Assembly (NCBI GenBank): GCA_021783275.1
Contig: JAJXUA010000008.1
Coordinates: 1 to 41,684, forward strand
Length of the DNA: 41,684 nt
Source: Pseudomonadota bacterium
Lineage (GTDB): Bacteria > Pseudomonadota > Gammaproteobacteria > Burkholderiales > Thiobacillaceae
Direction of reading: 5' to 3'
Both the position numbers and the translations under genes were made by a program. The notes beneath the pieces were generated by a model, which was not told the origin of the DNA, did no database searches, and worked only from the letters and a program-made list of their open reading frames with translations. Every line of letters starts with the position of its first letter. Within the stretch, counting starts at the first letter, position 1. This document shows, one piece after another, positions 17,611 through 28,642 of this stretch.

Positions 17611-18510
17611 TCAGTTTGAATTTTTCATTTTGTAGCTGCCGCGTTTTGCCGCAACAGGCTCAGGCACAAGCGCTGCGACTTCTTCCAGTGTCCAAACATG
17701 ATCGCTAATCCCGGCTTCCATCGCTGGCGTAACGCGAAGCGTTTTGTGAATTCGCCCGAAATTGTAGAACATGAAGTGCAGCGCTACGGCATGTTCAAGG
17801 TTTTCAATCTTTTTGCTGAAGCCGTTGGTTAACCGCGTAAACCGGCGCATCCCCATCCGCATCGTCAAATTCTGGCGCTCTACATGGCTGGTTGAGACTT
17901 TCTTAACGTCAGGGTCGCCTGAAATGCGGCGCTTCTCTGCACTGACAAACTGAGACGGGCTGTAGCGCTTTTGGGCTTGCAATGCTTCGCCCGGATTGCT
18001 GTAGTGCTTCACCAGCATGGCATAGTCAATCTCGCCACCAAACGCACCTTCTACGGCTTCGATATAGGGCTTGTGGCCGTCTGTAGTCAACTGCACACGA
18101 TTAGCGAGCCGTGAGGCCAGGTCTTCAATAAACGCGGTTGCATATTCCGCATCGCGCTTGCCAACCATGAACGACGGCACCAGCTTGGTATCCGGGCAAA
18201 TTGCCGTCCAGGTGTAAACGTCGCCATGACCGAGAACGCCCTTGTTTTCTTCGGAGACGTTCTTTTCCTTGCTGTAGCAGAAAGACCAGATTTCGTCGCA
18301 CTGGATGCGCTTGCACGGCAGGTTGCGCATGGCTTTGTCCTGATATTCGGAACAGGCTTGACCTACATCTATAAGCAGCGCGGTGACGGTGTTTATTGAA
18401 CAGCCAACCAAGCGAGTGATAGCACGCATGGAATTACCTTCAACCAGCAGGCCGAGGATTTGTGCGCGTTTTTCAATGTTTAGTTTGTTCATCCCAACCC
18501 CCTCAAGCAT
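17611..18510 (-). CDS. IS1-like DDE transposase
   Basis: 299 aa; HTH (SMRAITRLVGCSINTVTALL), CDEIWSFCYSKEKNV, TTDGHKPYIEAVEGAF, SHVERQNLTMRMGMRRFTRLTNGFSKK; stop codon lies in the left TIR. Confidence 0.85.
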   Translation of the reverse strand: MLEGVGMNKLNIEKRAQILGLLVEGNSMRAITRLVGCSINTVTALLIDVGQACSEYQDKAMRNLPCKRIQCDEIWSFCYSKEKNVSEENKGVLGHGDVYTWTAICPDTKLVPSFMVGKRDAEYATAFIEDLASRLANRVQLTTDGHKPYIEAVEGAFGGEIDYAMLVKHYSNPGEALQAQKRYSPSQFVSAEKRRISGDPDVKKVSTSHVERQNLTMRMGMRRFTRLTNGFSKKIENLEHAVALHFMFYNFGRIHKTLRVTPAMEAGISDHVWTLEEVAALVPEPVAAKRGSYKMKNSN

Positions 18511-24667: not shown

Positions 24668-24683
24668 TGACGGGTTCCCGTCA
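24668..24683. promoter_or_regulatory. Perfect palindrome upstream of the sigma-54 promoter, candidate activator-binding site
   Basis: TGACGGG-TT-CCCGTCA, about 96 bp upstream of the -24 element. Confidence 0.4.
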
Positions 24684-24778
24684 ATCTCCGGATGCCCCGG
24701 AACGGACGCGATCCGGAACACACATCCAAATACATGTTTAATAAGCGATTTTTTGTACCGTCTGTTGCAGGGTCGATG

Positions 24779-24794
24779 TGGCACGTGCATTGCA
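24779..24794 (+). promoter_or_regulatory. Sigma-54 (RpoN) -24/-12 promoter
   Basis: TGGCACG-TGCA-TTGCA: matches TGGCACG-N4-TTGCW at every fixed position; GG-N10-GC spacing exact. Confidence 0.8.
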
Positions 24795-24829
24795 CTTAGT
24801 CAGGCAAGCCCCTCAGAACGGAGAACATG

Positions 24830-24982
24830 ATGAAACTGCAATTCGGAAAAAACCAGTTGGTACTCGAACTCGGCAACGCACCCTTCGCCTGGTTTCATGG
24901 CCAGACTGAACGCATGAGCCTCACCAGCCTGTCGCTGCTGTTCGTGCAATTTTCGCTGTTTGCCCGTCAGTCGGCGGTGTGA
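24830..24982 (+). CDS. Small protein A of a tandem paralogous pair, 50 aa
   Basis: Below ORF-track size cut-off. GGAG upstream of ATGATG; MKLQFGKNQLVLELGNAPFAWFHGQTERMSLTSLSLLFVQFSLFARQSAV*. Similar to the next ORF. Confidence 0.75.
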   Translation: MKLQFGKNQLVLELGNAPFAWFHGQTERMSLTSLSLLFVQFSLFARQSAV

Positions 24983-25137
24983 TGCAAGTCGGTCGCGCCA
25001 CCAGCATCAGCGTCAGTCTGGCGCGCTCACCGCTGGCATTTTTCAGCGGCAGCACGGGCCGGATGTCGATGCTGAGCGTGACCCTGCTGTTTGTCGAAGT
25101 CCGCGTGCTGCGCCGAACCGTGCCGCACTGCGCCTGA
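24982..25137 (+). CDS. Small protein B of a tandem paralogous pair, 51 aa
   Basis: TGATG stop/start overlap with the preceding ORF; MQVGRATSISVSLARSPLAFFSGSTGRMSMLSVTLLFVEVRVLRRTVPHCA*; 15/37 identical residues in an ungapped hand alignment with protein A. Confidence 0.75.
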   Translation: MQVGRATSISVSLARSPLAFFSGSTGRMSMLSVTLLFVEVRVLRRTVPHCA

Positions 25138-25159: not shown

Positions 25160-26449
25160 CTAACGGCGCATCGTGAGCACCGCCTCCAGCCCGCCTTCGT
25201 GCGGGCGATTTTTTAGCCCGATTTTCCAGCCATGTGTTTCTGCCAGCTGACGCACGATCGCCAGCCCCAGACCGGTGCCGCCGGTGGCCTGCGCACGCGA
25301 GGTTTCCAGCCGGTAAAACGGCCTGAACACTTTTTCCAGCTGCGCTTCGGGGATCCCCGGTCCGCTGTCGCGCACGCGGATATGCACCCAGCTGTCCGCG
25401 CAATCCAGCGCCAGTTCAACGGGCGAGCCTGCGCCGTAACGCTGTGCATTCTGGATCAGGTTGGTCACGATCTGCCGCAGCGCCAGCGGCCCGCCATGCA
25501 CGATGCACGGTGCCGCGTCTGTCCACTGTACCCCTGTCTCAAGGGCGATGGTTCGCAGCAGGGCTACCAGATCGACCGGCTGCGCAGGCTCGGCCTGGGT
25601 GGTGCGCGCGAGTTCGAGGTAGCCGGTAATCAGCTTGTTCATGTCGGCCAGGTCGGCGACGGCCCGGTCGATACGGGCTGCGTCCGGCTTGTCGCGCAGC
25701 ATTTCCAGGTTGAGTTGCAGCCGTGTCATCGGGGTGCGCAGGTCGTGCGAAATCCCGCCCAACAGCGTCGTGCGGTTGTCCAGCAGATTGCGCACTTCGC
25801 CTGCCATGGTGTTAAAGCGCCGCGCCAGTTCGGCCAGCTCGGCCGGGCCCGTTTCCGGCAGGGGTTCGGGCAGCTGGCCTGCGCCAACCTGACGCGCGGC
25901 CTGGGCTGCGCGTGCCAGCGGTACGGTGATGCGGCGCACCAGCAACAAGGCGGTCAGCAGACTCAGCAGGGCGCCCAACACGATGACGGCAACGGCCGCC
26001 AGCGGCGGTTTGACGGCATAGCGGTCGGGATAAAAACCCACCCGCAGAGCGTGTCCACCCAGCGGAATATCCAGCCAGGCCGCCTCGTTGCCCGGCACGC
26101 CACGCAGCGTGACACGAGCCCCCACCCGGCGCGACAGGGCCGCTTCGATCTGGCTGCGAAAGGCAAAACCCGGCGCGTCGGCGGTCGCCCCCACATTGAC
26201 AGTGGTCAGACGCAGGCCATGCCGCCGCGCCAGTTCGGTTTCAAAAGCGGTGCGCGTTTCGGGCGGCAGTTCCACCCAGGTTTGCGCCGACAGCACGATG
26301 AGCCCGGCCAGGTCGTCTGCCGAACGCTCGGCCACCGGCATCACCAGTGTGCGGTACACCACCCAGCTGGCTGCCGCCTGAAACACGACGAAGGCCACCG
26401 CAAGCGTCAACGCAGTGCGTGCAAACAGCGACCCGGCCAGTGCCCTCAC
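25160..26449 (-). CDS. EnvZ-type sensor histidine kinase
   Basis: HAMP, GGISHDLRTPMTRLQL H-box, LIQNAQRYG, RDSGPGIPEAQLEKVFRPFYR, GTGLGLAIVRQLAETHG. Confidence 0.93.
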   Translation of the reverse strand: MRALAGSLFARTALTLAVAFVVFQAAASWVVYRTLVMPVAERSADDLAGLIVLSAQTWVELPPETRTAFETELARRHGLRLTTVNVGATADAPGFAFRSQIEAALSRRVGARVTLRGVPGNEAAWLDIPLGGHALRVGFYPDRYAVKPPLAAVAVIVLGALLSLLTALLLVRRITVPLARAAQAARQVGAGQLPEPLPETGPAELAELARRFNTMAGEVRNLLDNRTTLLGGISHDLRTPMTRLQLNLEMLRDKPDAARIDRAVADLADMNKLITGYLELARTTQAEPAQPVDLVALLRTIALETGVQWTDAAPCIVHGGPLALRQIVTNLIQNAQRYGAGSPVELALDCADSWVHIRVRDSGPGIPEAQLEKVFRPFYRLETSRAQATGGTGLGLAIVRQLAETHGWKIGLKNRPHEGGLEAVLTMRR

Positions 26450-27221: not shown

Positions 27222-27314
27222 AAATCCCCCTTGCGTGAAACAGGGCGCTTACTTTTATCAACCAGACTGCGAAGCGTGGAAGCAAGATAACGCGACCACC
27301 GATTGGAGACCACG

Positions 27315-27596
27315 ATGAACACACGACAACTGGGCATTTTCGGATGGGTACTGCTGGGACTGGCTTTGGCCACCCCGGTTCAGGCTGCGCCGGATTTTCT
27401 GGATGGCGTGATCATCGTTGCCAAACGCGACCACGATGACGCACGGGATGACCGTCGCGACCATCGGCCATCTGACCGCCGCAAGCTGAAGCGCGACGAC
27501 GACGATGAGGGGGCGTATGGCTATGGCTACGAACGGCGCAAGCAAAAACGTGACGATGACGACGATGACCAACCCCGTCGCCCCTACCGCCACTAA
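27315..27596 (+). CDS. Small secreted Asp/Arg-rich protein, 93 aa
   Basis: Signal peptide MNTRQLGIFGWVLLGLALATPVQA followed by charged low-complexity KRDHDDARDDRRDHR...KRDDDDDDQPRRPYRH. Confidence 0.75.
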   Translation: MNTRQLGIFGWVLLGLALATPVQAAPDFLDGVIIVAKRDHDDARDDRRDHRPSDRRKLKRDDDDEGAYGYGYERRKQKRDDDDDDQPRRPYRH

Positions 27597-27626
27597 CCCG
27601 CAGTCACTGGAATCAAGGAGAGCCTC

Positions 27627-28205
27627 ATGAACACACGCATTCCCCCATTCACTTCTCTCGCCATGGCCGTGCTGCTTGCCACCAGCGGTGCAGCCCAGGC
27701 CGCGCACGATGACGGTGATGGCTTCACCACCCAGGCCAAAGTGCTGTCGAGTACGCCCATTTACGACCGCATCAACGAACCCCGGCGTGAATGCTGGACC
27801 GAAACCCAGGGCTACGAAACCCGCAGCTACCGTGACGGCAACACCGGCGGCACCATCATCGGTGCCATCGCAGGCGGATTGATAGGCTCAACAGTCGGCA
27901 AGGGCAACGGCAAAGTCGCCGCCGCCGCTGTTGGCGCAGCGACCGGGGCCGTGGTCGGCAATCGCTGGAACCAGGGCGAGCGTCGCTATGAAACCCACCC
28001 GCAACAGGTAGAACGCTGCGAGGTTCACGACAACTTCCGCCAGGTCATCAGCGGTTATGACGTGCGCTACCGTTTTCAGGGTCGCGACTACAGCACCCGC
28101 CTGCCCTACGACCCCGGCAACACCCTGACGCTGAATGTGAGCTTCAGCGTGGCCGACCGCCAGGACGGCAGCTGGAAGAACAGCCGCAACGACTGGGACG
28201 ATTAA
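27627..28205 (+). CDS. Glycine-zipper 2TM domain (17 kDa surface antigen-like) protein
   Basis: Signal peptide; GGTIIGAIAGGLIGSTVGKGNGKVAAAAVGAATGAVVGNRW; ERCEVHDNFRQVISGYDVRYRFQGRDYSTRLPYDPG. Confidence 0.88.
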   Translation: MNTRIPPFTSLAMAVLLATSGAAQAAHDDGDGFTTQAKVLSSTPIYDRINEPRRECWTETQGYETRSYRDGNTGGTIIGAIAGGLIGSTVGKGNGKVAAAAVGAATGAVVGNRWNQGERRYETHPQQVERCEVHDNFRQVISGYDVRYRFQGRDYSTRLPYDPGNTLTLNVSFSVADRQDGSWKNSRNDWDD

Positions 28206-28279
28206 GCCTCAGGCCATACGGCACACCTCTGTTCAGCGGGTGAATAACCCGCATCGCCTCAACTTGAAGGAGAACCATC

Positions 28280-28642
28280 ATGTTACGCAAACTCATTATT
28301 GCCGCGAGCCTGCTGGCCGCATCCGGATCGGCACTGGCTTATGACGATTTCCGTCATGGCCGCGTGATTTCGGTCGAACCCAGCTTCAGCATCTCGTTTG
28401 GCAGCCGCCATCACGACGGCTACCGCATCCTGTATGAAAGTGGCGGCCAGCGTTACTGGCATCATTCGCACAGCTATCCGCGCCACACTTACATTGTGCC
28501 GTCACACTCTGGCCACTATGGACAAGGACATGGTCATTACAAACACGGCTGGAAGCATCATCGCGACGACGACCGTTACGAACGTCGGCATGACCGGCGT
28601 CATGATCGCCACGAACGTCGCCACAATCGCCATCACGACTGA
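28280..28642 (+). CDS. Small secreted His/Arg-rich protein, 120 aa
   Basis: Signal peptide MLRKLIIAASLLAASGSALA; C-terminal HKHG-like and RHDRRHDRHERRHNRHHD repeats; AAGGAG RBS. Confidence 0.78.
   Translation: MLRKLIIAASLLAASGSALAYDDFRHGRVISVEPSFSISFGSRHHDGYRILYESGGQRYWHHSHSYPRHTYIVPSHSGHYGQGHGHYKHGWKHHRDDDRYERRHDRRHDRHERRHNRHHD

Follow-up and report, generated by a model that had tools for sequence, protein, structure and literature searches.

A putative sigma-54-dependent operon for two coupled, paralogous small proteins in Thiobacillus and its possible link to the regulator of an MSHA-like pilus cluster

In the PrsK-PrsR system (PMC1569441, PMC9850573), RpoN-dependent PEP-CTERM genes form short units with a -24/-12 element and an upstream activator motif; such units occur in proteobacteria related to the present one, including Thiobacillus denitrificans. 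According to the text of PMC1569441, on which our comparison was based, the PrsR motif comprises 17 nt, ends in TTTACA and lies about 63 nt before the promoter. GlmY, under QseE-QseF (GlrK-GlrR), is another short unit; its NtrC-type response regulator uses distant sites with TGTC half-sites and the consensus TGTC-N10-GACA, and its product is an RNA (PMC8745638). A further point of comparison is the MSHA-type pilus cluster with a sigma-54-type pilin promoter.

The locus described here lies in a window of 41,684 nucleotides (the whole stretch of DNA that was analyzed; contig JAJXUA010000008.1) and shares features with all three. Like the PrsK-PrsR targets, it is a short unit with a -24/-12 element and an upstream motif, and its candidate activator is PrsR-like; unlike them, it has half-sites of the TGTCG/TGACGG type instead of a sequence ending in TTTACA, these lie about 94 nt instead of 63 nt before the promoter, and its small proteins carry no PEP-CTERM domain. 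In contrast to GlmY, it codes for protein. The Thiobacillus pilin of an MSHA-like cluster shares this type of activator site and likewise has a -24/-12-type element, whereas the small genes lie outside that cluster and show no similarity to any pilus protein of the searched libraries. The explanation that we consider best overall, with a probability of roughly 0.55, is a sigma-54 operon at 24668-25137 under the regulator of the pilus cluster, with products that may be accessory to the pilus. Regulation of this kind is already known, unlike the protein family and the probable regulon.

The -24/-12 element TGGCACGTGCATTGCA occupies positions 24779-24794 of the forward strand and is followed by the ribosome-binding site GGAG at 24820-24823, which reads AAGGAG or similar in relatives. 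ORF1 (24830-24982, forward strand) encodes the 50-aa protein MKLQFGKNQLVLELGNAPFAWFHGQTERMSLTSLSLLFVQFSLFARQSAV, and ORF2 (24982-25137, forward strand) encodes a paralogue of 51 aa; the two have the A of a TGATG stop/start overlap (24980-24984) in common. Downstream of GGAG, two ATG codons stand side by side at 24827 and 24830. Relatives usually have ATC, GTC or ATT at 24827 and therefore no ATG there, so that 24830 is the conserved start of ORF1. All these elements had been placed at the same positions by a first-pass annotation, as had the 15 identities in 37 positions of the ungapped, hand-counted alignment of the two products. Its view that the pair looks like a duplication and is likely to be coding is supported: within the own genome, an ORF1 query matches ORF2 with E=6e-5 (tblastn), and profile comparison of the ORF1 set with the ORF2 set gave a probability of 98.2% (E=2.8e-14), which, from sequence comparison, marks the two products as homologous. 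Elsewhere in the window, a 299-aa ORF at 17611-18510 of the minus strand reads like an insertion-sequence transposase, and three small exported-looking ORFs are found at 27303-28642 of the plus strand, one with a glycine-zipper domain and the others rich in Asp/Arg or His.

A tblastn search of 199 related genomes revealed ORF1 with 71-90% identity in genomes of the same genus and with 54-63% in two further genera, ORF2 being directly downstream in those genomes. A scan of named genomes identified the carrier genus as Thiobacillus, including T. thioparus DSM 505 and T. denitrificans RG, and both ORFs were present in 48 of its 55 genomes. Based on 46 sequences, both are under purifying selection, with pN/pS values of 0.186 for ORF1 and 0.301 for ORF2, and variable columns are most numerous at third codon positions (22/10/41 for codon positions one to three of ORF1, 25/14/35 for ORF2). 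Conservation across the genus together with low pN/pS excludes chance ORFs. The overlap between the two genes is likewise kept, as TGATG or TAATG, in 43 of the 46 Thiobacillus sequences. Conservation of the ORFs, the junction and the promoter element and a synonymous bias of substitution in relatives had been proposed as checks on the first-pass annotation, and each was found. Seven Thiobacillus genomes, among them G027 (99% complete), G003 and G001, gave no match, and G040 holds only a fragment cut at a contig edge; some of the absences may be assembly gaps, while G027 may represent a real loss.

The promoter element is present in all 46 Thiobacillus sequences, 44 of them following the strict pattern and two being near matches, at 50-54 bp 5' of the ATG and within surrounding DNA that has mostly diverged. 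In the own genome of 2.5 Mb, TGGCAC-N5-TTGCW occurs 13 times versus once for the reversed control; the same genome encodes rpoN and seven strong enhancer-binding proteins. No sigma-70 promoter was found in the region. Upstream, a 16-bp dyad of the TGACGG-N4-CCGTCA type (TGACGGGTTCCCGTCA, 24668-24683, not assigned to a strand) is a candidate activator site that starts 111 bp ahead of the -24 element, counted from first base to first base. In 41 of the 46 Thiobacillus sequences, the dyad starts 109-112 bp 5' of the -24 element, placed as an activator site would be. Five of six genomes searched, including the own one, contain the perfect dyad as a single copy at the small-gene locus, and the sixth has a copy with one mismatch there; elsewhere in the genome, copies with one mismatch are no commoner than the control pattern. 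The stretch between dyad and promoter is AT-rich, which could ease looping. At the other end, a possible intrinsic terminator (25189-25213, forward strand) is located inside the 3' end of a convergent kinase gene; it is weak, and a crude pattern finds it in one of 46 relatives. In many Thiobacillus upstream regions (e.g., L079), the dyad is flanked on its 5' side by an additional element, TGTCGACTGTTT...TTCGACAC, and TGTCGACTGTTT also occurs upstream of the gene in L209, from genus g95 of another family.

The proposal of an RpoN-dependent, activator-controlled module for two small proteins, already made from the letters of the locus, is supported by the kept -24/-12 element, a dyad at near-constant distance, the presence of rpoN and activators, coding selection and coupling. 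We infer that transcription of the operon in vivo depends on RpoN. To that reading, the present analysis adds an activator site, a wider protein family and a possible pilus link.

Homologues with their own -24/-12 elements were discovered in other Thiobacillaceae genera and in three more Burkholderiales families. All eight genomes of g95 have a single homologue (E down to 8e-8 with ORF1 profiles) with its own TGGCAT- or TGGTAT-type element, in a different neighborhood in which glycerate-kinase-like genes adjoin in several cases; two genomes of the sister genus of g95 gave no homologue. Within the Thiobacillaceae, genus g4 showed weak matches (E 0.008-0.03) that recur in seven genomes, with NGGCAC-type elements, with a dyad of the TGTCGGAATTCCGTC type at most loci and with the gene beside the convergent kinase in at least several genomes; a later search added two more g4 genomes with a member. 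At one g4 locus (L217 of G112), the first copy is immediately followed by a second one in tandem, MTLNLTPHLTILVRKAVNTASHVIHTQTRRLTITSLSFLKMEVMVLKYRVK. With a combined model, members were also detected in f29 (E=8e-14) and f35 (E=6e-11), two families in which a -24/-12 element and a dyad again accompany the gene. In family f50, the activator site looks different and is of the TGTCGA-N-CGAACA type. In these three families, the small gene is not beside the histidine kinase/response regulator pair. The family core consists of T-x-R-[LM], an S-rich hydrophobic strand and then [QE]. Many carriers have one gene only, and duplication of the small gene seems to have occurred more than once in the family. 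HMM matches in G242, G368, G215, G426 and G503, as well as class-wide matches, were too weak and were not credited. Pfam, NCBIfam, PHROGs, PADLOC and PDB returned no match above the cut-off, and no publication on this small-protein family came up in our literature searches.

AlphaFold predicted both proteins as all-beta meanders of four to five strands with no helix; the best models reached a mean pLDDT of 87.4 for ORF1 and 85.1 for ORF2, confidence being limited to one or two models out of five. Hydropathy indicated no clear membrane helix in either product. A fold search against the PDB yielded nothing at E <= 0.001, and matches to RseB, fatty-acid-binding proteins and lymphotactin, with E of 0.2 or more, were dismissed as not meaningful. 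Since a lone meander of 50 residues would leave a hydrophobic face open, the modeled proteins likely work as homo- or hetero-oligomers or by docking on a partner; that ORF1 and ORF2 form a hetero-oligomer with each other is possible, if doubtful.

Besides its regulator and pilins, the MSHA-like cluster contains a histidine-kinase-like gene and encodes an MshL-like secretin, an ATPase and a further ATPase that is MshE-like and bears a c-di-GMP-binding signature. Its regulator is of the NtrC type and PrsR-like, the best match being TIGR02915, below the cut-off; orthologues of it are present in each of the six carriers tested. The cluster pilin was examined in four Thiobacillus genomes. In each of them, it is preceded by a -24/-12-type element and by two sites that fit a matrix derived from small-gene sites alone; one lies at -109 to -112, the other 20 bp away at -89 to -92. 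None of 1000 first-order shuffles reached the top-two summed matrix score of the pilin in any of these four genomes, which belong to one genus and so are not independent. In G000, a third pilin site at -39 scores above the one at -109. The region before the pilin of G011 and that before the small gene of G395 share the 15-mer TGTCGAAAACACGAC (reverse strand). Scanning about 0.88 Mb for the dyad plus a -24/-12 element retrieved mainly small genes and cluster pilins, with a dozen weaker others; most of the small-gene sites had been used in the matrix, so that independent matches are limited to the pilins and some g4 sites, few in number. One genome, G057, is devoid of both the small gene and the cluster regulator, and in G165 the regulator is present and the small gene was not found. 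On a contig of G000 (C201; L195, L198, L327), rpoN is encoded together with the MSHA-like cluster, and the histidine-kinase-like gene lies beside the pilin. In G011 (L165; L328, position 18257, minus strand), a sigma-54-like site, TGGCACAAAGCTTGCT, is found 5' of the gene upstream of the cluster regulator and has no dyad.

Because an activator site of this type, along with a separate -24/-12 element, also precedes the cluster pilin, the PrsR-like cluster regulator is the favored activator of the small-protein operon, and judging from these sites it would be the activator with odds slightly better than even. Weighing against the preferred explanation are the position of the small genes outside the cluster, the other activators that the carriers have in common, genome G165 and the deviating site of family f50. 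Other ways of choosing an activator were tried and abandoned: the histidine kinase/response regulator pair next to the operon is of the OmpR type and lacks a sigma-54 domain, and autoregulation offers no guide, as no strong dyad lies beside activator genes of the own genome nor at the sigma-54-like site before the cluster regulator in G011. A serious, less probable alternative keeps the same operon and assigns it to another activator (PrsR, PilR, NtrC or GlrR-like) and another process, for example exopolysaccharide/PEP-CTERM surface biology or twitching pili. NtrC, PilR and PrsR have orthologues in the same six carrier genomes, the cluster regulator is itself PrsR-like, and some promoters of the PEP-CTERM/exopolysaccharide type score moderately on the matrix (L162 12.5, L163 10.6, L188 9.1). 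However, no comparable dyad was found next to the genes of the other activators, and two of them were rejected on their sites: the PrsR motif, as worded in PMC1569441, differs in its TTTACA end and in its distance from the promoter, and the dyad does not follow the GlrR/QseF consensus (PMC8745638), the GlrR match of carrier G070 amounting moreover to only 43%.

Two further readings concern the nature of the product. The idea that conservation concerns a small RNA under sigma-54, with incidental ORFs, has a precedent in GlmY, one of the short sigma-54 transcripts that act as RNAs (PMC8745638), but we regard it as highly improbable here, given protein-level selection in both ORFs, conserved coupling, distant homologues that are recognizable at the protein level only and a region with no Rfam match. 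Two small, translationally coupled genes with no assigned function might also recall a toxin-antitoxin or defense module. Against this very unlikely reading stand the paralogy of the partners, the many single-gene carriers and a chromosomal pair that is vertically kept in the genus; PADLOC gave no match, and searches of phage, plasmid and viral contigs did not turn up the family, so that a phage or plasmid origin was rejected as well.

In the preferred reading of a sigma-54 operon under the cluster regulator, 24668-25137 would be the complete unit. An activated NtrC-type response regulator, most likely the PrsR-like one of the MSHA-like pilus cluster, would bind the 16-bp dyad, and DNA looping would bring it to RpoN polymerase at 24779-24794. 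The output would be a short mRNA for the two translationally coupled, paralogous proteins of about 50 aa, which may be cytosolic accessory or regulatory factors made together with the pilus. A pilus-linked role of the small proteins, the likeliest of the functions considered, is suggested tentatively. Rather unlikely in its full form is the further idea that an unrecognized beta-meander family of about 50 residues, often present as a coupled paralogous pair, makes up a small dedicated RpoN regulon together with the MSHA-like pilin and, as a hetero-oligomer, tunes pilus assembly, retraction or signaling.

Proteins of about 50 residues are easily overlooked by gene callers. The layout of promoter plus activator site is kept across several Burkholderiales families, which points to a tightly switched system devoted to small proteins of a kind absent from the searched libraries. 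Should the operon truly be tied to the pilus regulator, Thiobacillus would have a defined, testable regulon with two targets, and a PrsR-like regulator without known targets would gain a binding site.
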